Assembly (NCBI GenBank): GCA_028622995.1
Contig: JAJQJQ010000004.1
Span: 7,688,001 to 7,752,000, forward strand
DNA: 64,000 bases
Direction: 5' to 3'
Source: Panagrolaimus kolymaensis
Taxonomy: Eukaryota; Nematoda; Chromadorea; Rhabditida; Panagrolaimidae
Below, piece after piece: positions 1 to 64,000 of this stretch. Both the position numbers and the translations under genes were made by a program. Each line of letters starts with the position of its first letter. Within the stretch, counting starts at the first letter, position 1. The notes below the pieces were generated by a model. It was not told where the DNA came from. It did not search any database and worked only from the letters and a program-made list of their open reading frames with translations.

Positions 1-1459
1 TTTGGGTTAGAAAACAATTATTTTATCAAGATCTTAATATAAAAAAATTTATAATTTTTACCTAGATTATTTATCTATGCTTGAAATCTTTTTTTTTAAA
101 TTATTTTTTTAACTGTGTAAAACAAGAACGCGATAAGTTTTCTTATTAACTTCAAAAAGAATTGGAAAACTAAAAAAAATATATTTTACATTAGCATTTT
201 AAGCAAATATTCAATTATATTTTTTATTTAAAAAAACATTGAATTTTATTAGCTTTTTTTTGATTTAAACTGTGAAGATTGATGTTCCCTATTTTTTAAA
301 TTATAAGTTTTTTAAGTAATTTTAAAAAAAATTTTTTTAAAGTAAACAAAATAAAATAAAATGTATTTTTTAAAACTGTTAAATATCCTTCTTTACGGCT
401 CCAAAAATTAATATCATTTTGTTGCAAAAGATTTATTAAAGCGAAATAATTTTAAATTTTTTTTATAAAACTGGGAGTTCATGAATCAGTTGGGGGTATT
501 ATTATATTTTTGAAATATATTTTAACGGAATATATGAAAACTGTAGATGATTTTTTCTTAAATAAGGAAGACTAAGCTATGAGGCATAAATTTACAAGAA
601 CAGCACGAATACCCTCCATCTTTTTTTAATAAATAATAAACTGAATTGCCCAATGTATGGCGGGAAAAATATCCAAAAACGTTTTTCGTATTTATTAAGC
701 GGGTTAACTGTCGACATCATTAAAATAATTTTATAAACTGGGTCAAATTCCTCCTCGATGGCTCCAAACTTATCAATGCTCTTTTAAAATTTTTATTAAA
801 CAGAACATATTTTTGTGAATTAAAAAAAACTGTTAACTTGCAAAGCGATAGGAAATTTTTATTTTTATATATATTTTTGATAAAAAAAATTGCGTGGTAA
901 AAAGTAAGGTTGTATATTATAGGCTAACAAAATATTTATTTCTTTCTTTTTAATTTTATTTACTAAGCTTAAAACTGTGTTGGCAAGTTCTAGATTTTTT
1001 ACATAAATATTAATAAAACTGTATAAGATAATGGGCGCAGGAAAAATGCATCAAGATTCTTTTTTTGAATATATTTATTTTGCTTTTTAAATAAAAATGC
1101 ATAATATTTTTTATATTTATAAATTATAGTAACTCGTCGTTGCATGTTTTTAAAACGAATATAAAAAATTAAATAATTTTAAAACTGGCTTCATGTTTTG
1201 TTGTCGGTGGTTAGAATTAACTTAGTTTTTGATTATAAAAAATCTTTTTAAAATAAACTGAGGATCATTAATCCGTATTAATTTATTGTTTATTTTCTTT
1301 TTTTTTGAATGAGTATGTAAAAACTGGTACAAAATTTTCATATTCTGAAAGCCTTTTTCGGCATATATTTTTTTTCTAATTAAAACTGAGTACAAGTACC
1401 TCTTTTTTCGGAAATTATAAACTGTATTCCCACGATAAACATAGAAAAAAATAACTAAC
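1..1459. other. Non-coding, motif-rich sequence 3' of last visible bark beetle exon
   Basis: No coding exon is recognisable here. The exon ending at 1460 stops at a GT donor in phase 2, so this is intron and the gene continues off the left edge. The stretch carries about 16 copies of the AAACTG motif on the plus strand (for example near 111, 268, 376, 468, 640, 973, 1016, 1182), each followed by a short non-AT-rich segment and then A/T tracts. Confidence 0.7.
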
Positions 1460-2109
1460 CTTCGCTTCTTTCGAATATATTCAATATGTTTATATTCATC
1501 GCTTATAATTCTATGTCGTGCCCTTTTGAGGATGCTTCGTTTATATCGAGTTCCAATCTTTCCTTTTTCTTGCAAAACTTCCGTTGCATTTATTGGTAAG
1601 AATCTAATGGGTTGCCATAAAGTTCCATCAACAACTAAATTTCCTAGCACCAAAATTCTAACATTCGGCCAAATATGAACTTCAACATTTTTTTCGATAT
1701 AAAGTGTTGCTCCAGGCATAATTGTTAAATCTCGAGTAATTCGATAAGGGCGAAAAGGTTTATAATATCGAGGAAAACCGGGCCATTTTTCTATTTCAAG
1801 CGTCAAATTTTTTGTTTCATACATTCGTCCATGAAGGTCGGGAGCTGGAGGTTCTTGATATGAAACATAATTTAATTGTCCCTAAATTTTCAAATTTTAA
1901 ACTGTTTACAAAAATTATAAATTTACATATGATTGAGCCCACCAAAAATCATTAAATCTTTCTTTTGAATTAAAATAAGGCGAATATTGTCCTATCGTGA
2001 ATGAATTCCAATCATCCATATCAAATATTCGTTGAGGAATCATTCCTTCACTATTTCCACCCCACCAATTATGAGTGATGTTCATGAAATCAGATCCTGG
2101 GATTTGGGG
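1460..2109 (-). CDS. Bark beetle-like exons 11-12: unit closure and third unit opener
   Basis: Exon 11 (1927-2109) has ITHNWWGGNSEGMIPQRIFD, the closing motif of a unit. Exon 12 (1460-1881) has a third opener (RDLTIMPGATLYIEKNVEVH) and leaves a phase-2 donor (GTTAG). By analogy with the first two units, a third SRCR domain would be expected next, outside the window. Confidence 0.82.
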
Positions 2110-5100
2110 CTAAAAAATATTTGAAATTTAATTTTAACTGACTTTTGGCATGTTTATATTTTTAAAAAGATATTAAAGAAAATTTATTTAAAAGAAAAAT
2201 TTAAACTGTATAAATGGTCTACAGGCGGCTATTTTTTTATTTTAAAAAGATTAAAAGAAAGAATTTTAAACTGCTTTTTCAACCCAGCTGGTTAAAGAAA
2301 AAAATTATTCGAAATCAAAAAAGTAACAATGGTTTCGAGAAAAAAAAGCATTTATTTTTAACTGAGTTACCTAAAGATAACAGGAATTAATAACTGATTT
2401 TTATGAATTTGATATTTACATAACTGAATAATTAAAGTTTAATTTTAACTTTTTCTTTTAAATAAAACTGCGCTTGAGGAGGGACGCGTAACGATAAGGT
2501 TAATTTAAAAAATTTATCATTTTACTGTTTGCATGTTAGAATTCTTTTTAATTTTTAATTTTAAAACTGCTTTTGGAACTGTCTTTTGAAATTGCTTGTA
2601 CGTAGCAAATAAAAGTCATTTTTTAAAGGTTTTTCTTTCAACAAAACTGTTCCAAAAATAATCTCGCAGTTTTTTACTTTGATTATTTAAAAAAACTATT
2701 TCCGAAGATTGCGTATTTTTTTCTAAAGTTTTTTGGAATAAATCAATTTAAAAATTTGAAATTAAGTTTTTCAGAAAATAAAAAATAAATTTATAATAAT
2801 AAAAAACTGTGATATTACGCGACCGGTTTTTTAATACAATTACAAGAATAATTTACCTTGCATCCAGCAACGACTTCAAAATCCAATAATTTATTATTTA
2901 AACGATTAAAATGAATATCAGCCTTTTGAGAACCAAATACTCCCACAGCAAAACTCCTCGGCCATGAATCCACATATTCCTCGGGTTTCGACATAAAAAC
3001 ATTTCTTTCAAAATAATTAAATTGAATATAAGCCGGAACTTCAATGGAATCAAATTGGACAGTTTGGGAATTGATATCCATTTTAACCATCCAATGTCCC
3101 CAATTATCATAAAATCTATTTCTTTCCATAATCAATCGCTTTTCCATTCCATTTAAACTAAATATTCCTTTTCGAGGGTTTGCAAAATTATCGGTGAAAT
3201 TATTGGATGAAATATTTGCAAAACAATAAAATCCATTTAATTCCACTTCAAAATTTAAATTATTTTGAAATCTATTTTCTGTCATCCAAAATGTGTGTTG
3301 CTTTTTAGTTGCAATATTATACGAATCCGGCAAATGCACGTAAACTCCTGAATTGGAATTATTTGCAAAAGTATTCGACCAAAAATTCCAATGGAAAACA
3401 TTGGCACTGCTAAATAAATCTCGATGGGTGTCGATTATGGGGCCATGATTGTCATGAATTGAACAATTATCAATAAACCATGAAATCTATAAAAAAAAAG
3501 TAAAATATTAAACGGCAGCTTGATTTGTAATAATTCAAAAAAAATTTCTTTAAAAAAAACTTTATATTGCTTTTGAAAGTTTTATTTATTTATATTTTTT
3601 ATTTATGAAGAAAACTGTTATAAATCTTTGAATTTCTTTTTTCAATAATTAAACTGGACATGTTCTGTTTTGCTCTTAACGAAACAGATATAAAAGAATT
3701 CTTATCGAACTTTTTTTTTGTTCCTGAAAGATTTTTTTTTGGTGGAAAAAAACTTAGTGGTGTTGTGTTTGTTTGCTTCACAAAAATCAGCTTATTTTTT
3801 TGCTAATAAAACTGAGGTCTTGTATTTTTTTAGTAAGGAAAAACTGAATAATTTTTTGGTTATAGTTTAACAAAAATCAAATTTTTTTTATATTTGTAAA
3901 ACTGATTTACCAAACGAGCAAATGGGAATAAATTTTAGAATATCAATCATTTTTTATGGTTCTTTTAACTGGAGAAGGCATTGTACGAAGAAGAGTAAAA
4001 TATTATTTCATCGGTACTATCAAATTTTTAAATATTTGTTTTAGAAATAATAATATAAAATTTTCTTTTTTATGAAAAAAACTGAGTTAACGTTTTCATA
4101 AAAACCCTCACTTCTTTTTTATTTTAAAAACTGAAAACTTTTTTGTATTTCGGAAATTAAAATATACGTTAATCAAAAAATATTAATATTATATTTTTGT
4201 AGAAAAAACTGTCGTTTCATCTTATTAGATATTTTTGATTTAATTAAAATAAATTTGAAAATTATTTCCCTTACCTCTGTGATGGGTGTTCCATAAATGA
4301 CTTCATGTTGGGGTGAATGTATCCAAATCACGGCATCACTATTATCCGTGAAATTAACTTTCTGGAACCAAAGTTTTTCATTTGTGTGTCGATTAAGAAC
4401 CGTTCCATCTTGGAAAGTCATGTTGCTGTAATGAACCGCGGAAACCCCATATTGATTATGGCGAATCACGGATTCATAAACATGCAAGAAACGATCGAGA
4501 TATTCTTGGGCTAAAAAATATTTTAAACTGTCATCAATGCTATTTTGGTAAAAAAAAACAAACCATCCAAAAATAGAATTAATAAAATAAGTTTAGGTTC
4601 GCCATGAGACCGAGTATATTTCATGGTTAATTTATTTCCAGCTGAGACTAAAGGAAAATGCACGGTGTGATCCCTGACGGACCAAGATTTGCCCGCTTGT
4701 CGATCATAAAATATTGCATTTTCATCGCTTTCATTATTAACTCGATTTACGATTTGTACAGCCAATTTTGCTGATAAACCATATTCATGTCCCACAGCAA
4801 AAATATCCAATGTGTATGTGCATGGCTCAAAAGGAACTAAAAAAAAAGTATTATATTATTTATTTTTATTTAAACTGTTCAAACTTATTTAATTCGGGAT
4901 TTTTAGGAAATAGATATTTAAAAAAATACAATTTGAGTTTAACTGTGGTGTGATATGATTTTGTGAAATTCAAACAGAGTACGAAAAGACATCTTTTTTT
5001 AAAGGCCCTTATAATTGATCTTTTTAAATTAAACTGCACAAAATATTGTTTGAATTTCTTTAGAAATATGCTTTTCTCTTTTGTAATTATAACTGTTGAT

Positions 5101-8100
5101 GCGACTTTAAATAAAACAAATAAAAACTGAGCAAAAAAGGAAGTTTTTGTATTTTGAAAAAAAGTTTTTTATTATTTTTTAATGATAAAAAAAAACTGGA
5201 AAAAGATTTGTTATTTTGAGTGATGTTTAACTGTGGCTTATTCTTTGTTTTGTTATGAAATTTAAATAAAACAAAATTATTATAAAACTGTTAAGAATTT
5301 TGTTCGGGTGTAATTCGATAAAATCAAAATAATTTAAATACAAAAAATAATTATTTTTTATATTAAAACTGTGGTAGGGTAGGTAATTGATCTAAGCGTG
5401 AGGGAGGATACAAAAAAAATTGAAATTTTTGGGTGCAAAACTGTTAAAGATATTTTCTTTGGCATTTTCAAAGAATAATATTTTTTTTTTGAAATTTAAC
5501 TGACTCCTTCCATCTTTTCATTTTTTATTTTTAGTTATTTTTTAAAACTGTCCTTTCAACTTTTTAATTTGCTTACCTCTTTGACAATCTTGAGTTGGTT
5601 TAGCAACCAAAAATTTTCTTTGATTTAATTGACTTTCATAAACTTCAATTTTATCAATGGAATTATTTGGAAAAACTAAAACATTATTGGCTTCAAGATC
5701 CGGTTGCTCTCTTCGATCCAACCATGAAACTATGTCGCGTTGTTGAGCTTCGCTGATTCTTGGATTAAATCGAACTCCAGCATTTAAATTATTTTCAACC
5801 AAAACATTTTCCACCGTAATTCCAACTGAACGAAGTTTGAGGCCGTTTCTTCGATTTTCGGTGACATAAATATTTCGAAGTGCTGGCTTTTTTGTGAGAT
5901 CATTATAAATAATATCGATTCCATCATAATAATTATTTCTAACTGTTATATTGGTGAATGAATGATAATTCCAATCAATCTATAAAAAAAAATTTAACTG
6001 TCAACTTCAAAAACATTAAGGAAAATTAAATTTTATTAATTTTATATTAAAAAAAATTGTCTTTTTCTGATTTAATTAGTTCAAATTTTTTGTTTTTAGC
6101 ACCAATAAAATTTGTTAAATAAATTTAAAACGAGTTTGAATGTTTTAACTGGGGCGACCTTAGTTTGCGGTAATCATTCAAAAAAGGCTAAAAACTGTAT
6201 TCATTCAACGTCTAATTTATTTTTTAACTGTCAACTTGTTGTCGAGAAGAAGAAACTGTGATGAGTCGTTTTTAATGGAAAATAAGTAGGCTATTACAAT
6301 TTAATTAATGATTTTTAATAATAAAAAAAACTGTTGTTGCTCGATGGTTCGGGAAAAAAATAACAAAGCGTTTTCTCCCTTGTTTTTTTAATTTGGCTAA
6401 AAACTGCATATGTCTATTGGTTCCATAAAAGGAAAAGAATTTATTTTTTGATGTTTTTTTTATTAAAAATAATGTTCGCCAATTTTAGAACAACTTTAGA
6501 AATTTAACTGTTGCAAAGAAAAAGCGACGAATAAATTACAAAATATCTCTAATACATAATAAATTGAAGTTATTTAAAAATAAACATTTTATGGAAAAAA
6601 AGAAACAGCATTTTGAATTATATTTTTTTAAAGTAAAAAACTGTATCATGCGAAGTTCGAAAAAAACTTCAAGCGATAAATTTAAATTTAATCTTTTTTT
6701 ATTAATAAATTTTTTTAAAAAGATTCTCGCTTAAATTTTAAAATTAAGCAGAAACTATCAAGAATTTGTAAGTAAAATTGCTTTAAACTGGAGAAGAAAA
6801 AAAAGACGGATCGATCGTGAGCTTTCGAAATGGAGGTTAAAAACATGTTATTGACAACTTATAATTTTCTTTAATTAAAGTAAAAGAAAAGCAATATCAA
6901 TTATTGTCATGGATTTAAAAAAATGTAAAATTTAAACTGCGATCCAATTGGATTTCATTCCACATCTTTAACTTAAAAATTAAGCTAATAATTAATTAAG
7001 TGTGGAAAATTAAAACTGTTATTCTTTGACGCTTCTGTTCGAATATGATCATAGGAAAAAAAGAGAAAATAAAAAACAAAACTGTCGCGTTTAATATTTA
7101 AAGGTAAAATCATATTTAGATTTTTTATATTTAAAAAAATTGTTTATAGTTTTAATTATTTTCTTACAATTTATGAAGAAAAATAAATAAAAAAAAACTG
7201 AGTGGTGGTTAATTTATTTTAGAAAAATTTATAAAAGTTGAAAACTGTCATCCTTGTCGATTTTCAATAAAAAAAACTATTTTCTAACAATTTTATTAAT
7301 TTTAAAACTGTATTGAAAACAAATTACCTGTAAAGCGGGTGAAAAGGTGCTTGTCCTGAAATCATATAATCCTGCTTTTTCAATTAACCAATTATACATG
7401 GTCGTTTGCCCGGTAACCATTGGAGGATTAGCTAATAAAGAATATCGAACTCCAGCCCAATATGGTTTAGCACATCTCAATCCCACCACTTCTGTATCCC
7501 TGCAACCTGCGCCAACATTATGAAATAATCCATCATGTCGACACATGGTTATATCGAATTCATTTTCTTCACATCTTATATTATCCATAATCATTGGAAG
7601 TTCGCCTTTGTCAACAAAAATTCTCCAATTTTCAAAATATTGTGGATCCATGGTTAAACCCAACTGATTGCATGCAAGATGGGCGAGTTCAGCGGTCCAT
7701 GATCGATTGCAAATGGTTCCCCAATTTCCTTCCACTAAAACTTCGAGTCTGCCTTCAGTGATTTCTTCATTTCCATCTTCGTCAACCAAACGAATATTTT
7801 CGAGGCTTGGAAGTTTGGAAGTCGTGGAAGTAAAAACAACGGGAAGTTCAGATTCTTGAAAATCTGTCCTTAATAATTCTCCCTGAACAAGCATTCCAAT
7901 TCCATCCATGAATTCCAGTCTAGCTCCTGGAGCAATGGTTAATTTAGCTCCTGGAGCCACGTGTAAATCATCCACGACCGTGTATCTTCCAGGTGTGAGG
8001 TCCTGATTTTCAAAAATAGTTCCTCCAATTTCAAAGGGCTTTGATTCACTTTGAAATTTTCGATATGATTGAAGGGTCAAAGCCATTTTGGGAGTTCGTT

Positions 8101-11100
8101 GATTGCAAATCGCTGCATATGGATTTATATTTATTGAAGCAAGGGAATATCGATTAAACTGAAAATAAAAATATTTAAATTTAGAGAAAAAATAAAACTG
8201 AGCATATTTATATAAGCTTGTTTGTAATTAAAATTAATTTTAACTTTAAAAAAATTTAATAAATAGTTTAAAAACTGACGAAGATGTTCAGTTTTCAAAA
8301 ACATTTTACTCAAAAAAAATTTAAAATCTTAAAACATAACAGAAATATTCTTTTACACTATTTCCAAATTTTAAATAACTGAAGCAGAGCGTCGTTTTTG
8401 ATAAATAAAATTTAGAAAATAAACTGTTTTTTTTTTTAATTATAAAATCCATCTATTTGCAAATAATATTTTTACATAATTATTATTTTATTTGAAAAAA
8501 ATAGTAAACAAAATTAATAATAAAAAAACTGTGAATCCATCCAGCTATTAAATTTTCTATAAATTCTGAAGAAGCTTCAAAGAAATTCTAAATTAAAAAT
8601 TTAAACTGAGTATCAGTTTGCTTTTGGAACAAAAAAACATGGAGCAAAATTTTCTTAAATGTCATTAATTCAAAAAGCATTTAAAGCTTATTTTTATAAT
8701 TCTAAAACTGCACCATTGAAGCGGGCTAGGAATACTTTTTTCGTTGATATAATAAAAAAAAAGATAACTGACAATAAGTAAGTAAAGGTGATCAATGTTT
8801 CTGTTTTTCAAAACTGCTTTGCATTTATTTCTTGTTTTAAAGAATAAACTGCTTTCTAGGAAAATAAAATTTAAAAAAAATAGAGGCGACTTTTTAAACT
8901 GAATAACATTTTGTACGAAGAAATTTTAAAATTATTTTTAAACTGAATCAGGACTATTTTTTAAAGATTAACTGTTTGTTTTCCAAATATTAATTAACTT
9001 CATATGTGTGATTAAAATAATTAGTACTGTTTGCCTTTAAATCTCTAACTTTAACACGTGATATATTTTTTTTTAATTTAACTATCTTCCTTTGTCATTT
9101 AAAGAAAATGAAAATTAATTTTAATTATTTTAAAACTGTGAGTCGATTTGTTCTTCGGATTAACTATCATATTCCAATTAAAAAAAATTAAACTGCTATA
9201 AACCATTAAAATCTTGTTAGAATTATTTTTTTAAAAACTGTTTTTCTTAAGGTTTCTGGCATAAAATCATAAAACTGCTTGAAGAAACACATTAAATCGA
9301 GAAAAAAATAATAGAGGATTTTTTTAACTGACATCAACCAATTTTTTAAAAGAAAAAAAACAAATTTTAATATTTTTAAACTGAAAGCTGATATGTTGTA
9401 AGAAATGAATAACTAAAGACTGAAATTTATAAAAATAATTAAACTGATGTTTTTCTTTTAATAATGACAATTGGACATTTTTTTACAAACTGTCAAATTT
9501 TTTTTTTGTGATTTTAAGGGTAAAAGGCTTAATTAACTGCGTCGAAAAACTTTATATCGAAAAAAGAGAGAGAAGTTTTTAACTTACTCATCTAATATAA
9601 CACAAGAATTTTTTTAATAAAAAATTTTAAACTGAGTTGGAGTAATCTTCCATGAATAACTATTTTTTGTTATTTAATAAAAATAAAACTGTGGTGGAAT
9701 ATGCGAAAATTATTATCATATAAGTTTTTTTTAGTTGAAGCTAATTTTCTTACAATTTTTGATATTAGAGAGTAAACTGCGAAAGAACTTCAAAGACCCA
9801 TTGGGCAGAGAAATTATTTTTTGAAAACTGTCATCATCATTTAATTTACAAAAAACAAACAAAAAAATAATTATAATAATTTTAAACTGGAGCGTAATTT
9901 GCGGTACGGAATAATAATTATTTATTATTAAAAAATTTAATTGTCTGCATCAAACAAAAAGAATTAAAAGTGTCATTTTTTTAAACCGAAAAACTGATGT
10001 TTTTTTATTTTTTTAATGATGGAGGATAAACTGCATTCTATCAAGCAAAAAACAAAAGGGAAAAATATCGAGGAAGCTTTAACTGCTATTTTTTTTATAT
10101 AATAAAAAAGAGATTTAAAACTGAATCACCTTGTGGATAAGGAATTTTATTTAGATTTTTAACTGATCAGGGAAAGAAAATATGAATATCATTTAAGTCT
10201 TTTTTTGATAAAACTGAAATTTCATCTTTTCTAGAATTAAAGAATAAACTGAATCTAAATTCCTTTAAAGTAAAAACACAAAAAACTGTCTTCGCAAAGT
10301 ATTTTTAAGCTTTTAGGCGAAAGTTTAATAGCCTTTGCTTTTTATTATGGCTTAATATAAATTTTTTAGACTGCATTATGTTTTGTTCAGCGGAACAACT
10401 ATTATATGAAATTTAACTGTCATCAATAAAAAAACGGACTTACCTGATCAAAAATGCGATCTTTAAAATTATCATAATGTTCATGACCCCAATTATTTTC
10501 TCTTGCATCAATAATTTTAGCATGTTCCATTAATTCAGTGGCTATTTCATAATCCGCGTGAGGATTATTGAAACAATTTCTTCGAATCACCACATTGCTG
10601 CTCGAAACCACCATCGCCGCATATGGAGTACTTCGGGGCTTTAAAAATGGAAAAGGATTAAACACTTTATTTCCGCGTAATTCATTTTGTTGATTAAAAA
10701 CCATTTTTTGATTTGGTGCATCTTCATTTAATCCAATATTAACAATCCATGGACCAGAATTAAATTTAAAAATATTTTTAGCGATCGTTATATCAGATTT
10801 TAAATTTTTGAGATGAGGTTGATTGGAATTTTTAATTAGCAAACATGAATAATTATTATTTAGGAATTGATTGCTATTTATTATTCCGATAACATTGACT
10901 GCGGGTTGCATGCGAATTGTGACTTCTGAATTCGATTCAAATACATTTCCAGTTATATCCAAAGTTAATGGAGCAGGTTGAGGATCTCGACACGAAAATA
11001 CATCAATTGCAGGATGATTATGATTTTGAATAAATTGGACCCAATTTATAAGGACTTTGGGCTCATAAAAATGGAGTTGTTGATGATCATAAATTTCAGG

Positions 11101-38336: not shown

Positions 38337-38343
38337 GGATAAC

Positions 38344-44864: not shown

Positions 44865-45382
44865 CTAAAAATCAAAAAAAGAAGAAGAAATAAACTGAAT
44901 TTTAATTTATTATATGGAAAAAAAACTGTTGTTCTGTTTGTAAATAGATCAACAAAAAAATCTTCTGAAGAATAAATAGTTTTTTAAAACTCAGCATGGC
45001 TTCTCTTTGACCTTAATATTTATTTTGAGGTAGAAATTTTACAGAATAAAGTACTGCATATTTATTTTTATAATTAAAAAAAACTGATACCTGAACCTTT
45101 ATCTTCATGAAAAAATAATTTTGTGATTTCTAAAACTAAATAAAAAACTGAAGTTGGCGATAATTTTCAAATCAAAATAAGAAAAATGAAAAGAAATTAT
45201 TTTGTTTCATCGACTATGATAATAAACCCAATAAATTAAAAGAAATGGAAATTTTATTGTTTTAACCATTGAAAATAAAAATATTCGTAAAAAACAAAAC
45301 TGCAACTGATGCTTGTTAATCCTCAACAAATAATTTTTTAAACTGTATTAGTTTTATTTTGCAGTTTTTAATTATATAAATC

Positions 45383-45388
45383 TTTATT
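45383..45388 (-). terminator. Receptor kinase polyadenylation signal
   Basis: AATAAA on the minus strand, 94 bases beyond the stop codon at 45482-45484. Confidence 0.5.
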
Positions 45389-45481
45389 TAAATGAAAACG
45401 ATATAAGAAAGACAAACAATAATATTCTTTAAATTAAATCTAACATAAAAAATATTTAAAAATAATCTTTTTTCTTCTTTT

Positions 45482-46042
45482 TTATACCCGACTAACTTTA
45501 GCTGCGTTGCGTTTAGAATTTTTTGGACTTTCTTCGTCATTATTAAAATTTTGTAAATTATTTCCTGAATTTGAATTCACAGAAATAATGGATGAAAGAT
45601 TGGTGGCTGATGATTGAATATTTCGAGGTATTTCATAATCATCTCCTCCACCTTCCATATCTTCGCCACAAATTGTGGTTGTTTCAGTTTGGGCCGAAAT
45701 GGAACTTTCAGGTCGATCAAACGAAAACATCGATGTTGATGGAGCTCGTTGCCGAAGATGGGAAGGCAAACCAGTCGAATGATTTTTTACATTATCTAAA
45801 AAACTGTAATGTTGATTTAATTTATGGAAAATTTGTGGGATACCTGATTTATCAAATCTTCCAGAATTATTATTTCCAATTAATTCTGAACTTTGATGCC
45901 TTCGATCTTGATGATGGCTATTTTGTTGTTGTTGACGGGGATAATGTTGCTGTTGTTGTGGATTGCTAATATTTGAATCTTGTGAAGCATCAAATCCATT
46001 ATTTATATATCCACTTTGAATTGAAGGAAATGGGGAATTGCT
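45482..46042 (-). CDS. rol-3: Receptor kinase exon 20: cytoplasmic tail
   Basis: The tail is Gln/Asn/Ser-rich (SNPQQQQHYPRQQQQNSHHQ) with a DDYEIPRN tyrosine that could be a phosphosite. A 48-base segment at 45796-45843 starts GTATCC and ends TTTTTTAG on the minus strand, is a multiple of three and carries an AAACTG. It may be a tiny intron instead of coding sequence. Confidence 0.85.
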   Translation of the reverse strand, partial: SNSPFPSIQSGYINNGFDASQDSNISNPQQQQHYPRQQQQNSHHQDRRHQSSELIGNNNSGRFDKSGIPQIFHKLNQHYSFLDNVKNHSTGLPSHLRQRAPSTSMFSFDRPESSISAQTETTTICGEDMEGGGDDYEIPRNIQSSATNLSSIISVNSNSGNNLQNFNNDEESPKNSKRNAAKVSRV

Positions 46043-52000: not shown

Positions 52001-55000
52001 TACCCAAAAATTTGATATAAAAAATCAAAAAAAGATATATATAAACTGTGTCAACACAGGGATAAATAAAAATCATTAAATGTTCTTAAAATAAAAAAAT
52101 GAAACTTTTTTTCATAAAAGTATGAAAAAATAAAGTTGAATCTTTTGTTACGTAAAAATTTATTTAAAAACTGACACTTGGAATTCGATAGGGCTGAATT
52201 AAATTTTATTTTATTTTTGTTTAACTGTATTTCTCATCATAATTATGTTTACTATTAGTTTCAAATAAACTAATTATACTGAAAATTTTATTAATTCGAA
52301 AGGAAACTGCATCTTCATTTAAAAAAGTTCGTAAACAATGTATATTTTAAATAATTAATTAAAGAGTATTTTTAAACTGACCCTTATCAAAATTTGTTTA
52401 TTAATTTTTTAATGTTTTTTAAAAGATTTTAAAATTTTAACTGTAACAAAATAATCAACCATAATAAAAAAATTTTTAAAAACTATCTTAAAGAATACCA
52501 TTAAAACTATATTTGTTTTTTGGTAAATTAATTATATTTTAACTGTATAAAGCTTCTTTACAGAATTACCACATTCATACATGCAATAAAAAAAATCTAT
52601 ATAAAACTGCACCACCCCATTAATTTCTAAATGGCATTAAGAGCTATTTAAAAAAAAATTTCAATATAACTGAGAGCATCGGAAAAAGCGGATAAAAAAA
52701 CTTTGAATTTTTTTTTATCAAAAAATAAATTGTAAACTGCGAATTGTAAAAGTAGCAGAATAAATATTTTCATTATTAAACTGAGCTATTAATTAATAAG
52801 AGTATTCAAATCTTTTAGCAAGCATTTGATATTCAAAAAAAACATTTTTTATTAACTTTATAAAACTGAAGCCATGTTTGGTTGGAAAAAAAAAGAAAAT
52901 TCTTTGCATTCAATAATTGCATTTATTTAAAAAACTGGGCCAATTGCCAGGCGATCAAATTTTAGAAATATTAACTGTTTTAAGCCGCCTTGCGAAAGAG
53001 AAAAATTTAAGATAAAACTGTGTTACTCAAAGCTATTTTAATTTTTTAAGTTTTTGTTTAAAACGAAAAGTTTCAAAAAAATGAAGGGAAATAAGAAACA
53101 ATTAATGAAACTGTTTCCGACTTGCATGTTTTGTTAAAAATTTTTTACCAAATAATTAAACTGTTTTGAAATTTTCGATCCTTTTTTTTAACTGTATAAA
53201 TCAAATAAAAATGGGAACTTACTCAGTTTCTTTATCCAATATTCCATTTTCAATATGAATATTATTCGAGATACTTCGAAAATGTTTAACTTTATCCGTT
53301 TTAGATCTACGAAAATGAACATCGTATTGAGTTGGTGGAAACGAAATATTTGCGCATGAATTTGAAGTTGGAATGGGTTCTTTAACAATAATAAATGCTC
53401 CACTTCGGCCTTCATTACTTACATTAAATGAAATGGATTCTGGCGGGGGTAATTGAAAGCACGTTCGTTCAGGGTATGGCTCAGATGATTGACTCACAGC
53501 TAAAATGGATTTCAATGGAGTATTTTGAATGGGTAAAATCGATGGAGTTTCCGTTGTTCGATCATAAATAATTAAATTCGTGGCGGTTCCAAAAACAAAT
53601 AATTTATCTGCGATTGAAATAGTTAAAATTGATTTAAGTCCCGTGGTTTCTTCAAATTTATTCCATTGAATTTCAATATCGGAACATTTAAAATTATTTA
53701 AATTAGTTGAATCAATTGCAATTATTCCATTCCATGTGAGCGCATAAATTATCGGTGATGCAGCTCGATTCCATTTAAAATCAGTCATAATTGAAGTAAT
53801 TGTTTGAGATTTCAAACAATCAAGGGAAAGGGCGAGATTCTGCTCGGTTCCATGAGTTAAATCCAAACGAAATAATGAACCATTCGTGGTAAGTAAATAT
53901 GCTGAACTAAAAAAATATAAAGTGTAAGAAGTAAACTGTCTTTGTCTTAATCTTGTTGTGCGCTTTGTTTAAATCACAAATAAATTATTTTAAAATGTGA
54001 AAAAACATAAATTAAATTTTTTTTTAACTGAATAGTATTCCCCCACTCCAGATTTTTTATAAAACTGAACAATAAGTTTTTAAGAGGGAAACAATCCTAA
54101 ATTTAATACCAAAAGATAAACTGTGCTTTCGATAAATATATTTATCTCATTAAAAATTGGGAAAATATTAAAATATTTTTTTATTAACTGACGCGCGGTT
54201 TATTGAAAAACACAAATAAACGGTTGAATCCATTTTGTTGAGAAAAGCTTTTTCAATTCACTGGCAAAAGTAAAATTTAAAAAACAAAATTAAACTGGCA
54301 CCAGAAAATTTTTTTTTAAAATAGAAAAGCCAATTAACTGTGGAAGATTATGAAGGGATCGTCAAAAAATTATGGAAATAACTATTTTTGAAAAAAGATT
54401 TTTTAAATTTTTGGTCCAAAATAAATTTTTTAACATAAATATATTCCAAATTAAAAGCTATGAAAAAATTATATTTTTTAAACTGAATAAGGTTGAAGGC
54501 GTTTTCCGTCGAAAATGGAACAGCACATTTTTTAATACAAATTTTTTATTTAATCAAAAAATGAAAGTAAATTAAAATGTTTTTAAAACTGGATAATTAT
54601 AATTTTAATCAATATCTTGAATAAGTTTTGCTAAAATGGTAAAAAAACTGCATTGTTGTGTTGTGTTGTTACAGAAATTAAATTTAAAAAAAATCAAAAC
54701 TGTCAGGTTCAATCTTTTTTTTGGAATTAAGTTTACCATTATTTAAGTCAATAACAAAACTGAAGTTCATAAACTTATTTAAAAAATTTTTAATTTAAAT
54801 TTTTTTTAAAAAACTGTTTGAGTGGAAGTTCTTATTTTTTTTATAATACCCAAATGTTTTTAAACTATACAATAAAAAATGTTTTTGAGAATAATAAACT
54901 TACTTAGAAAATGGATCAAAAAGCAATTGTTTTGCATCTTGAGCTCCAGAGGAAAGGGAGAAAACTTTTTGTGGAGTTGCCACTGATAAACTCTAAAACA

Positions 55001-58000
55001 AATATTTTTTTCTATTATTAAAATTAACTGTATTGAGTTATTTTATGGGCGCAAAAACTTACATCAAAAGTGTCTAAAACAATTTGATAAATATCATGTC
55101 CTGCAACAAAAAGCAAGCGATTTGCCACCCAATCACTTGTCACAGCATCGATGTGACTGAATTCGGTGTTGAGTTGGACCTAAAATAAATTATTGAGGAA
55201 ATTTTTAAAACTGCCAAGACCATTTAGTGACGGTTATTAAATAAACTGGATTCTCATTTTCAAATTTTCCAAAAACTGTGACGTTCTTCTTTGATTCTCA
55301 ACTTCAAAAAATAAAAATAAAACAAACTTTATGTAAAACATTTTCAACATTATTTATATCCAATAAAACTGCAAAAGGCTGAACGGAATCCTCTTTTCGA
55401 ATGGCATACAAATTATTATCCACAAATGCCATTCCTTGATAAATTGGATTATTATTATTATTGTTATTGTTTTGGGTTGAACTTTGTTGCCTCTTTACTC
55501 TAACTCCATCCCAAATTGTGGACCAATTTGAAATTGCCACTAAATTATCCAATGAATCTATTGCAAATAATCGAACAAGAGGGCGAACATCTAAAAAAAT
55601 ATTTATAATTAACTGATACATAATAAATAAATCTGTAAGAATTTTAACATTTATTTTTTATTTTTGGAAAAACTGCATTCTTAATTTTTTGAGTGTTATT
55701 TTTATAAACAAAAATTTTTCTTTTGATAATTTTAAAAACTGATCACAGTTGCTCTTTCGTAATTATAAACTGAGATTTTTATTATTTTTCTGAGATATGT
55801 ATACAAATGTCAAAAATATTTAGATAAACTGTAAATTATTTTTTTAAATTTGCAAATAATAAAAAAAAATTCAATATTCTTTTTAACTTTATTGTGCCGT
55901 AATGGTTTTTATAAGCTTAAAAAACTGATAAGGTTAAAAAAAAGACGGTTAAAGCTTTCTTTATTTTAGATATGGGATATTATAAACTGCTGCATGCTGT
56001 TCAGTACTTTTGGTTTTAGGGTATTAAACATTTTTTTTTTATTAAAATTTACTTCATCCAATAAAAATTATTTTGAAGAGAAAAGAATGAAGATATTAAT
56101 TAGGTCCGTGATAATAAAAAAAACTGGATGTTTTTACTGCTTATGTTTTTTTTTTATCAAGTGCAGATATCTTAAGAAATAATTTAATCCTCATTTCTGA
56201 ATGATCTAGTTTTTGAATTTAAGATTTTTTCATAACTTTTTAAACTGTCATTTTGATGATAAAATTTTATATTAGTCAAAAATCGAAATTGCATTAGAAC
56301 TTCCATGCAGTATTTTTAGTTACTATTTTTCTACAAAGGAATGAAAAAACTGCGTAAATCAAAATGAAGGTGATTAAGACTTTTAAAACCTTAATTGGAT
56401 TTTCTTTAAACTGTATTCCTTTTGGGTTCTTTATCGAAAAATAAAACATTTTTTTGTTTTTCATTTTTACAAAAAATAAATTTTATTCTATAAACTGCGC
56501 CAGCAAAAGTTGTTTTGGTTTCGAATATTTATTTTTTAATATAAATTTTTCTTTATCCTTTTCGGTTTTAAATTTTGAAAACTGGGATCTTGATAAATAT
56601 TAGGAATTAAAAAAAACTCTTTTAAAGCAAAGTAATTTTTTTTTGCCTACTTAAAAATTTATTTTATATTTCTTTCTTTTTTTATTACAAAATAAAATCA
56701 AAATTTACTGAATTTTTTTAAAGGTATTAAACTGTGCTTTATGATATAAGCTTCAAACGATCTTTTTAATAAATAAAACTAAGTTCGACATAAGAAACAA
56801 AAATTTTATATTTTATCTTAAAACTTTTAGTTTTTTTATATACAAAAAAGAAGAAGAAATAAAACTGAACTTGAATATGTTTCTTGGCTTATTTAACAGC
56901 CAATTTAAATTAATTTTTTAATTAAAAAAAACTGTTTCTCTTTCAATTTTACAAGAACTCACCACTCGAATCAATGGAAACCAAATCAGAATATTTTCCA
57001 ATTAAATTTTGTTCATTTGAAGCAGCAACGGCGCAACTAACTTTCCCCGATTTTACTGAGAATGAATAAGTCGCGGATTCTTTCGCGGAAACATTTTGAA
57101 CAAATATCGTGGATTTAAGATTTCCGTCTATAATCGAACAATTTACAATATATTCCAACATTTCTCCATTCCATTCATTTGGAGAATCCCAAAATAAATC
57201 TATGATTGCTCGAGCGCCATCGATCGTTTTTTGTTGAGTAACAAATAGTTTTAAATTCTTTGGTGCTGTGGGAGGTTTTGTGGGAGCTATGAGTTCCGTG
57301 GAATTTATGGTTACTATATTCCATGGAGTTATAGCATCAATAATAATATCATATTTTTGTTGGGAAGGCCATTTCTCAAGAATATATGTTGGAATACTGT
57401 AAGAATTATTTAAACTAATATCCACAATTCTTTCCCCTCCAAATCGATCTTTAAATAATTGAATTTTATATATTATTTTTTCATTTTCATTATTGCTGCT
57501 GCTGCTTCCATTTTCTTCATTGATTTTCCATTCCAATAAATTTGAATTTTTTGTATTAATTTTATTATTTGTCTCACCGCGATCATTTTCATTTTCATTA
57601 TTTAAAAATAATGAAATTGATTTATTTTCTATTGGAATATATGGAAGTAAATGTTTAACATTTTTTATTCCATAATTTATTTTAATGTTTTCTAAATTAA
57701 TATCAAATATTCCAAATTCTCCATCCAACAGAGTTATAAAAGCAAATAAATCATTTTCAATATAAATAATTTGTTTTAATTTTGGAAATTTATTGGTGGA
57801 GGAAATTAAAACGGAAACAAAATTATCGATTTGAAATTCAAACAAAGAAATATTTCCATTTGGTGATTGCAATAAATAATATATTTTTGAATCATTATTC
57901 CAAGATGCTGTAACTCCGACTACTTCAGCACAATCTTGTTGTCCACATTGATATATCCTAAATATGAATAAAAAATAGTAATTAACTGCATAAAACTTTG

Positions 58001-61000
58001 ATATTTAGAAAAGATTAAACTGGATCACAATTAAAAGGTTTTAATCTTAAATGTGAAAAGGAAAATAGTTGGTTTTGGAATAATAAAGAAAAGTAATAAT
58101 TTCTTTTAAATATTTTATTGGAAATAGAGACTTTCATTTTAAGGGCTTTTAGAAACTGTGAAGGAACTCAGATTACTTTATTTTTTTAGATAAAACTGGG
58201 CCACCATTTGATGTGGTTAAACAAAATAAAAAAAACTGCCAAATGAGATGGGAAAAATATGGAAGAAAAATAGCTTTTTTCTTTAAACAATAATTATCGT
58301 TTTTTTAATATTATTTTAAAACTGGTTTGATGATTAATAGCATGAAGATTAATTAATTTTTAAAAATTATGTTAAGCGCGGAAATGAGTGATATTGCTTT
58401 TGGTGATATTAAAAAGTTTGGTATTCACTCATTTTCAAATAACATTTTATATTTTATTTTAAACTGGATCAATCTTTGTTTCTTTGTTAATAAAACAAAA
58501 AATTTAAAAATTAATAAAACTGTTGAAAAATCTTTAAAAAAAATTTTTATATCAAAATAAGTGAAAAATAAACTGTCTAAGGTTTGGCAACAAAAATAAA
58601 AGTAGCCATAATCAAAAGATGCTTTCATTGTAATTTTTTTGCTTTAAAAATGTAATTTTTTGGCTTTAAAAACTGCGAAGAAGCGAGTTGATGCGAAAAT
58701 ATTTTTTTTGAACTACGTTTAGGCGGAAATATAAACGATTGAAAAAACTGTTTCTTACAACAATTCCATTTTACAGAAAAAAGCTAACCATTTTTAACCT
58801 AATTAAATGCCGGGGAATATTTTTCGACATAAATCTATTGTTTTAATAAACTGTTTGAATGTGGGATAAATTTCTTTAGAGAAATATTAATTGATACCTT
58901 TGAAGGCAGAACTTACATTCGATCAAAAGTTCCAGTGAGGCGATATTGAACGATTTGATATGCGGATGCAAAAATAATTACAGCTTTACTTGGAATTATG
59001 GATAAATGAGTAATGGTGAGAAAATCGAGGAATCGATATCGAATGGTTTTGGGCGACATTGAACGAAACACAGAAATATCTGAGGCATCCGCAAAATAAA
59101 ATGCTTTCGTTGCATTATCAAATGTTATTACATCCATCGGTGGTGATGTGGATGGAATTAATGGAACTGAAAATAAAAATAAGAAATATTTTGGAAAAAA
59201 ATAATGTTCAAACTGTCGAATGTTTTATAATTTTTTTTAAAATACATAGAATAGTTAAACTGTTTACAATGGAGGGTTTCAGAAGCCATCGAAAATTAGA
59301 TAAAATCAAAGTAAAACTGTAGTTGGTCATTCACGTTTGCATAAAACCTTTAAAAAAATTGTGCAGACTTCTGCTTTTTTATTTATTGCTTATTTTTACA
59401 TTATTTAAAAAAATAATTAACTGATTTGAAGATAGCGTAGTTAATAACCATTTTAAAGAATTTAATTTTTGTTCGCTATTCAAAGAAATAATAAAAACTG
59501 GAAAACACCAACCAGGTTGATTTTAAAAACTGTTTTAAAAAATTAATTTTATTTTTTTGTTAACTGACGCAATATAGTTCAAGGTATTATGAACTTAAAA
59601 TATATTTCATAAAAAACTGCCATCCGTTGTCGCCTCTTTTATTGAAACTTTGTGATTTTTTCCTCTATCAAATTTTTACAATCAAAAAATATACTAAAAT
59701 TTAAAGAAAAAGAATAATAAAGGGGAAAAATAATGTTTAAACTGTCGAATGATTATAATTTTTTTTTAAAAAAAATAGTTAAACTGCGCCCAGCCGTAGG
59801 TGACGAAAGCAACCGAAAATTAGAAAAAACTAAAAGTAAAACTGCAGTTGTATTTGAATTTCCATAAAATCGAAAAAAAATAAACTGTAGCTGTTTCCTT
59901 TATCTTTAAACATTTTTTTTCAAGTTTATAAACTGGATAATATTTTATATTTTTTAAAAGAAGACGAAGGTAGGAAAACTGTCGACTTTAGACATTTTGA
60001 AATTAAAGGAATGTCATAAAAAATTTATATTTCTTTATAAAATAAAGGAAATGTCTGTCTCGGGTACAACGAACATTAAATATTTTTAAAAAAATTTAAA
60101 AAAAAAACTGAGAGACGCTGCTTGCATTTGTTTGCTACTTTACAATTTCTTTCTTTTCATTTTTGAATAACTCATAAAAACTCTGTTTAGAATTTTTTAT
60201 TATTTTTTTTTGAATTTAAACTAGATGAAGATGTCTTTTTTTCAATCTTAGAAGACTTTTTCTTAATCGTTAAACTGGCATTGATTTTCCTTTCAGAAAT
60301 TTTAAAATAAAAACTTACAACTTTCTTCGCATTTATTTAATTCTCTTCCAAGGATATCAATCATTTTTAACGATTCTGCTTCATTATTTTCTTGGACATA
60401 AGCGATTACACTTGGAAATATGGGAATTGTGGAAAATAAACCCGGAGTCATAAATGACGATGAAATAAATTTTGAACAATGAGAAAAACTGTCTTCTTCA
60501 AATTTTTTATTGGTGCATACTCTCACAAAAATTGAGTAATTCGTGGCTTTGGAAATTTTTGAATTTAAAAATACAAAAGTTTCTGAAGTTTCTGAATGTT
60601 CCAAAATGGAATTTGTGGAAGTTTCAATAAATTTATAATCATATCTTAAATTTCTCCATGAAATTCCAGGAGCTAAAGAAAAATTATTTTTAAACTGTAC
60701 CATCTTGAAATTCTTCGTTAAAAAATATACCTTGAAATGGAAGTGAAATGGGTGGAGTCCAAGTTGCTTTAGCTTCTTTTCCAGAAATAATTAAACTAAC
60801 TTTTTCTGGTGGCATTAAATAAACTGGTGCGGGATGATCTTGAAGGATAACCAAATCAATGACAGGTCCAGGATACAAATATCTAAAAAACACATTTAAC
60901 TGTAACAGGAAATATTTGGTGTAGAATGTAATTTAAAAAAATAAATCAAAAAACTGTTTCTGAATAACATAATCGGTTTACAGAAAAATAAAATCAACTC

Positions 61001-64000
61001 ATTTTATGGAAGCTAAGAGTTTTAAAAATATTTTCACAAATTTTAAATTTTGAAAACTGTTTGTTATTACTTTGACCTTCCAAAAAGAAATTTAAAACTG
61101 TGGAGACTCGGTTAAACTTGATTAATTCCAAGGAAAAAAAATAAACTGCGGTAAAAGAGTAGCATTATTTCATTAAAAGTAAAAAAAACTGTATAATTTT
61201 CTTTTGGAAATTCATAAATAAAAAACTGTATTCGCTGTAACTATGTCATATATTGGTGCTTCCCTCAACTTCCGTCCTCTTCTCATTCAAACTTCGCGCT
61301 CCTCTTGATTGTCCTGTAACGAAACAGCCAGCAAGATGGCAGCCTATTTGCATACTTGTGTTTGCTTTGCTTCTGTTTCACTTTCGTAGTTGTAGTTGTA
61401 TGTTACATTATTGTTGTGCTGGTTGTGTGTGTCTCCTGAATAAATATGTTTCTGTATATGTTCTTGTTTTATTAGGAATATCCCAGCTACAGCAGATGCA
61501 ACCAGCTCCCAAGGACTATCAACCGAAACCTCGACGACGCCAATATCTTATCTGTCACCGCGTGACATGGAGGGCCCTACCCATTTGTTCCTGTCTTGAA
61601 GAAATTGCTGCAGCGATGGAATCAAAGGAATGGCTGAACTATTTGAAGATGATGGTGATACTGGTGAACTCTTGGTAATGGTCTGATGGTCTCTTGCTCA
61701 TCTCAATCGTGGAATTATGGATTGAATCGAACTCAAACAACCTGTGAAATATGAACTGCTTATGGAGAAGCCAACAACGAATGTGCTGTGCTACTGGAAT
61801 GTAAGAAACTAAACTTGGTAAAGAACTTATAGAAAAACTTGTGATTGAATTATGGATATGAAACTTTGGTGTTTATGAAAGGAAAACTCTATGGATTGTT
61901 AATGCTCTTGTGTTATGAATGCTTTTTTGTTATGTTAATGAAATGTTATCTCGTCGAAAAGTTGCACTGGTTACAAGACCCAGACAGTAAGTCCACAGAT
62001 ACCCATAGATAGGAAACGAAGTGGCAAAAGTTAAAACTTGCACTGGGTTGCAACTCCAGAAATAACGAAGAAATGAAGATGTATCTCGTCGCAAAATTCT
62101 TCTTCATGGTATGGAGTATGGTTGAGAAAATGTTAACTTGCCAGAACTACTCGATTGAAGAAAGAAATATTCTTGTGATGAATGGATTTGCGCTTGCTTT
62201 ATGGTATGATCTTGCTGTTATGTTCTTAATGGTTATGGAATTTGTGAGGACGAAGTAATCCGATCAAATATGATACTCGTAAAGTTCTAAAATGGTGAAG
62301 ATCGATGGCTCTTATGAATGATCTTGATTTTTTTGATGTATGCTTAATGACAGCAGTGTTCTTGTTGGACCTGTAGCTATCGCTTAGCCTTTTGATGTCA
62401 GCTGGTCAATATGAAGATGGTGAAATTCGTATGGTACTCATGATGAAGGAACAAATCTTGGATGCAGACTTGATTCAACCTGACAGCATTTATGCTTAAT
62501 GTCTTGTACTGATGTCGATACCGATATGGAGAAAGATGCTTTGGTCCAAGAAATGTGTTATGAAAGAAAATTCTATGATCCAGAAATGTGAATGGTTTCA
62601 ACTTCGTGGTTTGGTCGTATGTATGCTCAACGAAAATGTGAGGACACATTTTGGAGGCGGTGGCGGTATGTCATATATTGGTGCTTCCCTCAACTTCCGT
62701 CCTCTTCTCATTCAAACTTCGCGCTCCTCTTGATTGTCCTGTAACGAAACAGCCAGCAAGATGGCAGCCTATTTGCATACTTGTGTTTGCTTTGCTTCTG
62801 TTTCACTTTCGTAGTTGTAGTTGTATGTTACATTATTGTTGTGCTGGTTGTGTGTGTCTCCTGAATAAATATGTTTCTGTATATGTTCTTGTTTTATTAG
62901 GAATATCCCAGCTACAGCAGATGCAACCAGCTCCCAAGGACTATCAACCGAAACCTCGACGACGCCAATATCTTATCTGTCACCGCGTGACAACTAGAAG
63001 GAAATCTTTTTCACTTTTCTCTTAAAACTTATTTTTAAAAAGAAAAAAAAATAAACTGGGTCCCTTTTTTATGGTAAAAGGAATAAAAAACTGCGTAAAA
63101 TAATTACGTTATGAGGATATTCCAATAAATTTAAAACTGAATTGTAAAATAAAATATTTTTTACTAACAAAAATATCCCGAATATTTTTTAATCTATTAT
63201 TTTTAATGAAAACTGTTAACTTCTGTCGTTAATTAATCGAATAATTTTAATTCTAAAAACTGCTTGTTTCTTTTAAAATCCTTTTCAAGGAAAAAAATAA
63301 GGAAATTTTAAAATTTTTAGAAATGTTTAAATAATTTTTACCTATTTAAATGAATTGCTCCACTTTCAGGATCTTTTTCCTCTCCATAAAGGCAACTCTT
63401 CCATTCATGATCATCCCCGCAAGCAGAGGAAATCCAAAATAATTTTTTATTAAAATATTTTTGTTTTTTAACTGATAAATATTTTTCGGATTCACTTAAA
63501 TTTGGTCGCAAATTTTTAACATTATTTTGATTAATTAAATTTATTCCAATTAAAGTTCCATTTTTTAAAATTGCTATTAATTTTTGTGTTTCATAATTAA
63601 TTTCCATGGAATATATTTGTGGGATTTGTGCCAGCCTTCTGTGAATATTAAAGGAATAAGTGGAAGGGGACTGCCATGGAAAAAGAGTCGCAATAAAAAC
63701 ATCTCCATTCGAAGTTGAATAATATAAAAATCCATTCCATGAATCCACTGCAATTCTTTCAATATAGGCTATGGATTTCGTGGTGAGAACGGTGGCATTT
63801 AAACAATTTTCATAGGAACATCGAATTAAACCCGATTGATTTCGAACTGCATAAATTCGTTCTTGAATTCCATCAACCACAAGTTGAACAATTTCTACTC
63901 CATCCGTTTCACGAATAAGCGATTGCTCAGTTTTATATTTAAATTTATTATTATTAAGCAAAATATTATTTGTGTCGTTGGTGGCCGTCGTCATAGTCTC
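45482..64000 (-). CDS. rol-3: ROS1/Sevenless/ROL-3-type receptor tyrosine kinase (20 exons, 5' partial)
   Basis: Exons in transcript order: 63342-64000 (open at the edge), 60731-60882, 60319-60672, 58917-59166, 56963-57957, 55328-55590, 55063-55179, 54904-54992, 53223-53906, 51219-51786, 49702-49915, 49520-49643, 49199-49467, 49015-49146, 48067-48265, 47781-48016, 46938-47118, 46740-46883, 46574-46679, 45482-46042. Every junction is GT-AG and in frame, giving about 2100 residues. Extracellular beta-propeller and fibronectin III domains alternate, then one transmembrane segment, a tyrosine kinase domain and a Gln/Asn-rich tail. The activation loop (YYRVKGEDFLPLRW, DGIFTNKSDVWAYGI) is that of the ROS1/Sevenless family, whose Caenorhabditis member is ROL-3. 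Type I membrane receptor, role in epithelial or cuticle morphogenesis inferred from ROL-3. Introns carry dense plus-strand AAACTG motifs; the first visible intron also holds a young LTR element. Confidence 0.93.
46574..48265 (-). CDS. rol-3: Receptor kinase exons 15-19: tyrosine kinase domain
   Basis: Exons 48067-48265, 47781-48016, 46938-47118, 46740-46883, 46574-46679. Visible landmarks: glycine loop GQGSFG, VAIK lysine, helix C KEAILM with Glu, hinge MELMEGGDL, catalytic HRDLAARN, DFG, activation-loop YY, and SDVWAYGILCWETLTLG. The usual Ala-Pro-Glu is Ala-Val-Glu (LRWLAVESALDG), a conservative-looking but uncommon change. All residues needed for catalysis are present. Confidence 0.95.
49015..51786 (-). 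CDS. rol-3: Receptor kinase exons 10-14: FN3 domains, transmembrane and juxtamembrane
   Basis: Exons 51219-51786, 49702-49915, 49520-49643, 49199-49467, 49015-49146 encode FN3 repeats (SPDTVLLYWKLPQSLNAPRN, FWILKWQEPENDGGAPIVSY, RVRAANSEGFGPYG), then the single membrane span (YYFILWISIIFVLTLLTLCI) and a basic juxtamembrane stretch (RKNKNKEKKRNYKM). Confidence 0.9.
53223..59166 (-). CDS. rol-3: Receptor kinase exons 4-9: propeller, FN3, propeller
   Basis: Exons 58917-59166, 56963-57957, 55328-55590, 55063-55179, 54904-54992, 53223-53906. Exon 4 and most of exon 5 are propeller-like (DNATKAFYFADASDISVFRS). The end of exon 5 is an FN3 domain (PTAPKNLKLFVTQQ, DLFWDSPNEWNGEMLEYIVN). Exons 6-9 form another propeller (VRLFAIDSLDNLVAISNWST, SDWVANRLLFVAGHDIYQIV, NRAASPIIYALTWNGIIAID) leading into an FN3 start. 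Donor GTTTGT of exon 6 is atypical but keeps frame. Confidence 0.87.
59193..59350 (+). repeat. Tandem-type duplication, copy 1
   Basis: Similar to 59723-59872 in the same intron. Three AAACTG sites are shared. Flanks such as AATAATGTT, ATAGTTAAACTG and CGAAAATTAGA match, while 59263-59289 (27 bases after the second motif) does not. Confidence 0.85.
59723..59872 (+). repeat. Tandem-type duplication, copy 2
   Basis: Counterpart of 59193-59350. The diverged 27-base segment is 59787-59813. It has the same length as in copy 1 but only about 12 of 27 matches, most of these in its last third. Confidence 0.85.
60319..60882 (-). CDS. rol-3: Receptor kinase exons 2-3: fibronectin III domain
   Basis: Exons 60731-60882 and 60319-60672 encode PPEKVSLIISGKEAKATWTP through LRYDYKFIETST and NYSIFVRVCT, an FN3 domain split by a 58-base intron. 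AAACTG occurs inside the coding part at 60486-60491 and 60821-60826, and in the intron at 60692-60697. A degraded copy lies at 43730-44182. Confidence 0.88.
61240..61243. other. Target-site duplication (left copy)
   Basis: ACTA, repeated at 62993-62996 just outside the right LTR. Confidence 0.8.
61244..61567 (+). repeat. Left LTR
   Basis: 324 bases, TG...CA ends. Contains AATAAA near 61439 (CTGAATAAATATG), a possible polyadenylation signal. Confidence 0.93.
62669..62992 (+). repeat. Right LTR
   Basis: 324 bases, no difference from the left LTR found by reading. Confidence 0.93.
62993..62996. other. Target-site duplication (right copy)
   Basis: ACTA, matching 61240-61243. Confidence 0.8.
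63342..64000 (-). CDS. rol-3: Receptor kinase exon: beta-propeller segment, open at window edge
   Basis: The frame is open to the edge; the Met at 63994 need not be the start. Propeller-like YWTD-type strands are visible (GIQERIYAVRNQSGLIRCSY, IAVDSWNGFLYYSTSNGDVF). Donor phase 2. Confidence 0.85.

Follow-up and report, generated by a model that had tools for sequence, protein, structure and literature searches.

A dense one-strand array of AAACTG units in Panagrolaimus kolymaensis, a candidate repertoire of piRNA-like guide RNA genes

The locus and its array

The stretch of DNA analyzed here, called the window, comprises 64 kb of contig C3 (7,688,001-7,752,000) of the Panagrolaimus kolymaensis assembly. 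Two host genes were recognized on its minus strand by domain search. The exons of the first (1471-17985) encode an SRCR domain and a sub-threshold match to a right-handed beta-helix, and those of the second (45524-60872) encode protein-kinase and fn3 domains. We take the first gene to be bark-beetle-like and the second to be sevenless/ROS1-like. One host-gene exon shared 82% identity with a protein of Panagrolaimus davidi. Genes on both strands lie in between (24508-38268), including a SepSecS-like one and an HSP70-like ORF (29983-31638), the latter recognized by eye from the ORF alone. This region also holds two similar genes in opposed directions, at 26435 on the plus and 33122 on the minus strand, and just beyond it there is a tRNA-Glu (38344-38415). 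Two plus-strand ORFs (61241-61678 and 62642-63025), ~1.4 kb apart, have a long identical stretch in common, representing a local duplication. On contig C42, the two flanking host genes are in swapped order relative to the window.

Units built on the word AAACTG fill two blocks, both on the plus strand. The first block (266-24507) lies in the introns of the SRCR/beta-helix gene and extends into its upstream DNA; per non-exon kb, there were 10.1 units in 1-18,015 and 7.1 in 18,016-26,000. The second block (38269-63256) occupies intergenic DNA and the introns of the receptor-kinase gene, with 9.2 (38,001-44,000), 10.4 (44,001-61,000) and 4.3 (61,001-64,000) units per non-exon kb. The 14-kb gap separating them (24508-38268) is free of units and gave a single match, at 30,418 within a coding ORF, which is a chance match. 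The gap may be a later insertion into the array.

The first-pass annotation of this DNA had described a many-fold recurrence of (A/T)AAACTG, and the counts bear it out. The window had 366 occurrences on the plus and 5 on the minus strand, against ~24 and ~13 expected from a first-order Markov model trained on the window, an expectation that the array itself inflates. Without the prefix letter, AAACTG occurred 382 times on the plus and 17 times on the minus strand of the window. The earlier hand counts, ~16 in the first 1.44 kb and ~36 in 8.16-10.38 kb, hold if TAACTG is included (16 and 35 (A/T)AACTG), but are too high for AAACTG alone (14 and 28). In the array regions, AAACTG was the hexamer with the highest strand bias (381:16). 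TAACTG behaved like it and adds further units (75 plus, 4 minus). The remaining one-letter variants tested showed little bias, the largest being that of AAACTA (39:17) and AAACAG (13:36).

As had been proposed, the units differ from one another in sequence. In the fetched array DNA, 1,333 distinct places gave 1,295 different 20-mers. All 38 repeated 20-mers were common to different contigs (36 to C3 and C18), and none recurred inside one contig. In the genome-wide match lists, a few units did recur exactly on a single contig, at distances of 8-14 kb. A search of the open PMC literature, by titles and abstract openings, showed no description of such arrays in Panagrolaimus.

Exons were avoided, with 9 of 355 units in predicted exons against 81.5 expected. 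Outside exons the density was ~7-10 units per kb, and introns were about equal to intergenic DNA. In the window, the motif lies on the plus strand and both host genes on the minus strand. Among 30 loci, including homeologs of one another or of the window, motif and coding strand were the same in 13, opposite in 11 and unclear in 6. The coding strand was predicted from codon use, several assignments came from weak scores, and one of the 11 opposite loci (L039) had a weaker signal also on the other strand. This mixed orientation indicates that the array is no feature of the host transcript.

Anatomy and genomic distribution of the units

The layout of a unit is AAACTG-N18-GG, in which position 0 is the first A and the motif spans 0-5. 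For example, the unit at 634-663 on the plus strand consists of TAATAAACTG, 18 unique bases and GG, with the motif at 638-643, the variable island at 644-661 and the GG at 662-663. The AT-rich lead-in and GC-richer unique part noticed at first sight are real: the G + C content was ~15% just upstream, ~30% over +6 to +25 and ~20-22% beyond, where the DNA is A-rich. The change between GC-rich and AT-rich DNA is present on both sides of the island, and the low-GC valley before the motif is deeper than the one that follows the island. With the contrast on both sides, the strand is left unfixed by the pausing signature.

The right edge of the unit is marked by GG at +24/25, found in 48 of the 366 window units. 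At other offsets, GG was found on average 10.8 times in the island and 6.2 times beyond it (background 6-11), and CGG at +23 was observed 15 times against 1.0 expected. Among 979 different units pooled from loci of which some are homeologous, GG was present at +24/25 in 160, of which up to 29 by choice, as 29 loci had been picked for one GG unit each. The GG is a feature of a minority of units. An A at -1 was found in 68% of the pooled units, making CAGTTTT on the other strand. In the same 979 units, no column from -60 to -19 exceeded KL 0.008, and past +50 just two weak columns did.

Units hardly ever overlap. Under a geometric law, 269 of 1,249 neighbors in non-overlapping loci should be closer than 28 nt, and 17 were; for the window alone, the numbers were 3 of 369 against 83 expected. 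The spacing sets in at 30 nt and is almost never shorter, pointing to a footprint of ~30 nt.

No YRNT-type start was recognized, as there was no base pattern at +4 to +10, T being depleted at +7. PATCs are defined by an A/T periodicity near 10 bp, and no periodicity of this type was found. We rejected a Pol III product on either strand because, of the 979 islands, 300 contain TTTT and 243 contain AAAA. A Ruby-type RNA ~40 nt off on the minus strand was rejected as well, there being no positional signal for it.

P. kolymaensis is described as triploid, with a 266 Mb assembly of 856 contigs, 49 of them identified as mitochondrial (PMC10374039). We searched a 265.8-Mb assembly of 807 contigs. The probe TTTAAAACTG-N18-GGAAAA gave 34 matches (control 1) and TTTTAAACTG-N18-GGAAA gave 73 (control 7). 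Of these 107 matches, 97 were on seven contigs (C3, C5, C18, C20, C23, C40 and C42) and the other 10 on C57, C81 (three), C98, C104, C187, C275, C334 and C652. Four of the 10 exactly repeated a unit of a main contig and the remainder were unplaced. The shorter probe TAATAAACTG-N18-GG gave 140 matches (control 34); of the 100 matches listed, the main contigs carried 94 and other contigs the remaining 6. Matches spanned 6.78-10.04 Mb on C3 and 0.23-2.61 Mb on C5, and the spans on the seven contigs sum to ~16.5 Mb, or 6% of the assembly.

The first-pass annotation had suggested comparing motif density genome-wide, and the array stood out in this comparison. All 30 block loci of 3 kb, taken from matches of the first probe, had one motif-rich strand, with 13-30 motifs, and an opposite strand with 0-2, and all eight 3-kb loci from contig C1 had 1-3 motifs; both sets were selected for holding a motif. 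At round-coordinate 2-kb points inside the blocks we counted 13, 14, 2, 11, 0 and 12 motifs (four of six dense). None of four points outside was dense, with 1 and 1 motifs in 2 kb and 4 and 1 in 10 kb.

Genome-wide, WAAACTG-N18-GG gave 7,934 matches (control 3,258). Scaling the excess over control by 366/48 gives ~36,000 units, and taking the C1 rate (76 matches in 12.9 Mb) as background gives ~49,000, that is 12,000-16,000 per haplotype, a rough estimate in which the window is taken as typical.

Change between homeologs

Segments of the window recur on contigs C42 and C18. The motif was intact in 122 of 157 units between C3 and C42 and in 91 of 107 between C3 and C18. It was kept more often than permuted words, both to C42 (74/90 vs 175/392) and to C18 (46/56 vs 214/300). 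The least conserved stretch was the island, sharply bounded at +6 and +23/24. Its mismatch was 0.290 (C3-C42) and 0.180 (C3-C18), against ~0.16 and 0.10 in the flanks. The islands of TAACTG units were equally fast (0.286 and 0.201), and ten control words, with 2-33 sites each, had mismatches of at most 0.18.

The speed of the island is not due to its composition. Between C3 and C42, each base was less conserved in the island (A 0.23, T 0.22, C 0.41, G 0.33) than in the flanks (A 0.10-0.11, T 0.13-0.14, C 0.28, G 0.29-0.30). Compared unit by unit, the island had fewer matches than the flanks in 58 of 83 cases and more in 21. In a gap-free core of 103 of the 378 units, the base-matched island/flank ratio was 1.76 (1.49-2.06), with 1.79 for C3-C42 and 1.67 for C3-C18. 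Because a unit enters this core only if its motif is intact and its right anchor conserved, these columns are no evidence within it; unselected sets of units gave a matching picture. A stricter filter, without gaps over 80 bp, was dropped in favor of this core. It left too few units to be informative, with ratios of 1.35 (0.85-1.68) from 8 units for C3-C42 and 0.68 (0.10-1.79) from 18 units for C3-C18.

Against four-fold sites (1,007 sites), the C3-C42 island ratio was 1.72 (1.46-2.06) and that of the flanks 0.96. For C3-C18 the ratios were 0.86 (0.68-1.08) and 0.51, on a baseline that is unmatched because the usable units, unlike the exons, lie largely in near-identical tracts. With respect to island swapping, the few per cent of units sampled gave, without a shuffled control, near matches of 15-17 of 20 bases at non-homeologous places, several of them of low complexity.

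One near-identical tract joins window positions 227-3617 to C18 (2632001-2642000, L049), with ~96% identity, where neighboring homeolog stretches differ by 15-25%. Recent gene conversion in this triploid parthenogen, or else loss of heterozygosity, is the probable cause. A second one (54335-59463) was 92% identical. Argonaute and U1 loci on C3 have counterparts on C5, collinear at an offset of ~3 Mb, which puts the array blocks of the two contigs far apart. On C18, homologs of the C3 end and of the C5 start lie side by side, a conflict that may reflect a rearrangement or a terminal duplication.

Interpretation and likeness to known small-RNA systems

A search with the Piwi domain family PF02171, common to all Argonautes, gave 143 exon matches over the three haplotypes. 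This is a large gene set, although no PIWI-clade member was found genome-wide in an exon-wise search, which could miss a very divergent protein. The best match of the PIWI-clade query was 73 bits, and all 70 matches had 23-42% identity. This consensus query scored 192-357 bits to PIWI proteins and 116-135 bits to Argonaute-1 to -4 in a check on solved structures, nematode PRG-1 not being among them. None of 20 short Argonaute regions inspected by eye looked PIWI-like. Loss of PIWI in clade IV nematodes has been reported in the literature.

Known nematode piRNAs are described as using a SNAPc route (PMC6436959). The U2 and U1 genes gave 15 and 26 matches in the genome, and neither AAACTG nor CAGTTT was found in the 80-bp upstream regions of the 26 fetched (12 U2 and 14 U1 matches, many of them homeologs). 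A SNAPc link is thus not indicated, and we rejected it.

Judged from the DNA, we consider it slightly better than an even chance that the array is part of a huge set of tiny autonomous transcription units, each yielding a piRNA-like guide RNA of ~21 nt. A unit would consist of a short AT-rich stretch, AAACTG as an initiator-type element, ~18 variable bases and often (T/G)G, ~30 nt in all. We infer that RNA polymerase II initiates on the plus strand, at AAACTG or inside it, and that it pauses or stops at the border between the GC-richer island and the A-rich DNA, so that each unit yields one short RNA. A GC-rich stretch followed by an AT-rich one has been described as the pausing signature of nematode piRNA loci (PMC6436959). 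The product could be a 21-22 nt RNA with a 5'-U, from +4 to +24/+25, matching the 21-22U class of Strongyloides ratti, or one with a 5'-G, from +5 to +25/+26, matching 22G RNAs. Such RNAs would load a non-PIWI Argonaute (AGO/WAGO-type) and form a diverse guide repertoire, probably against transposons, in which the guide part may be under selection to change. A repertoire of one-RNA genes best fits the preferred length, the non-overlap, the independence from gene strand, the uniqueness, the constrained motif and the fast 18-mer taken together. We prefer a plus-strand RNA because the simplest role for a strong motif beside a variable part is that of a start element. Against this explanation count the deeper upstream valley, the minority GG, the lack of a YRNT start, the C3-C18 ratio of 0.86 and the absence of the motif upstream of the U1/U2 genes.

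A further step is plausible, at somewhat less than even chance. In this reading, a lineage in which PIWI was not found would have ~12,000-16,000 dedicated, motif-driven, non-overlapping small-RNA genes per haplotype, with a promoter unrelated to Ruby/SNAPc and with guides that change faster than neutral DNA. This genome-encoded repertoire would have been rebuilt or have evolved independently, and would feed AGO/WAGO-type Argonautes directly.

The same units could instead be read from the minus strand, starting near the CC that faces the plus-strand GG and ending at CAGTTTT as a termination or 3'-end signal. The very AT-rich DNA directly after CAGTTT is the pausing signature of PMC6436959, the frequent A at -1 completes CAGTTTT, and the deeper valley upstream of the motif fits such an RNA at least as well. 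We nevertheless regard this as unlikely: the promoter would be nearly information-free (~0.43 bits at +24/25) and the strong motif merely a terminator, and the mixed direction of the host genes gives no tie to their transcripts.

An explanation of similarly low probability does without small RNAs and sees the motifs as binding sites of a region-marking protein, as in meiotic pairing centers or chromatin domains. Pairing-center motif clusters are known in C. elegans, and megabase blocks densely filled with a short conserved motif would suit this role. It leaves unpredicted the ~18 hypervariable bases, the GG at fixed distance, the 30-nt exclusion zone and the one-strand blocks, and the PATC-type periodicity was not found.

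Less probable again, the islands might be mutational hot spots, targeted or transcription-linked, beside a functional motif, their speed reflecting mutation and not selection. Between C3 and C42 the excess did extend to all four base types, and the transition/transversion ratio was 0.80 in the island and 0.69 in the flank. Mutation alone does not explain the conserved motif, the GG or the non-overlap, though it could coexist with guide RNA production.

A canonical PIWI piRNA locus shares the overall architecture, and is very improbable given the best PIWI-clade match of 73 bits, the different motif and geometry and the reported loss in clade IV. Least credible is an intronic RNA-processing signal or a decayed satellite: many units do lie inside introns, but intergenic DNA is about as dense, the strand relative to genes is mixed, the units have no common sequence and none of the five tandem repeats found is an AAACTG-unit array, so that we rejected both, in agreement with the first-pass view that this is no satellite.

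Clade IV nematodes have reportedly lost piRNAs. If the units make RNAs, a clade IV worm would have a system of piRNA scale, with one promoter per RNA and without PIWI, and this could hint at the motif that is missing for the 21-22U class of Strongyloides. The 18-mers, accelerated next to a conserved motif, offer a testable case of a guide repertoire outpacing neutral DNA, in a triploid parthenogen that lets the copies of each locus be compared. Beyond the reach of the first-pass annotation were the fixed right edge (GG at +24/25), the 30-nt exclusion zone, the TAACTG units and the exon avoidance.

Compared with known systems, the earlier piRNA-like reading stands for the locus architecture: unique short units with AT-rich flanks, in introns and intergenic DNA and in megabase blocks, with a conserved motif and a unique part that is not. 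In its strict sense it is not supported, as no PIWI-clade Argonaute was found, the geometry is not of the Ruby type, the motif is missing upstream of the 26 U1/U2 genes and PIWI loss is reported for clade IV. The type I 21U-RNA loci of C. elegans likewise form megabase clusters of a great many unique units with one RNA each, and have a GC-rich then AT-rich pausing signature as in the units here (PMC6436959). They differ in having the Ruby motif CTGTTTCA ~40 nt upstream, a YRNT start, a PIWI-bound 21-nt RNA from each locus, and the involvement of PRG-1 and SNAPc. Here AAACTG directly adjoins the variable part, as the first-pass annotation had observed in setting it apart from the known motif, and CTGTTTCA occurred three times on the plus and once on the minus strand of the window, with no such motif ~40 nt upstream of the units. 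In Pristionchus pacificus, piRNA loci are found inside gene introns, as here, but are dispersed and have a Ruby-type motif (PMC6436959), whereas the units form blocks and are about as dense between genes.

The 21-22U RNAs of S. ratti, a clade IV nematode without PIWI, come mainly from two clusters, of 1 and 2.7 Mb, that lie on a single X scaffold (PMC9203780). These RNAs, 21-22 nt long with a 5'-U monophosphate, have been sequenced, whereas those of the array are predicted from the DNA. They are described as also transposon-derived and mostly overlapping by 20-21 nt, and no motif is reported for them (PMC9203780); the units here do not overlap and carry AAACTG. Both systems form megabase clusters on both strands with AT-rich flanks, in worms in which PIWI is absent or was not found, and a 21-22 nt RNA with U at +4 would fit the unit as it does the S. 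ratti class. By this comparison, the motif-less 21-22U clusters of S. ratti are the closest known system.
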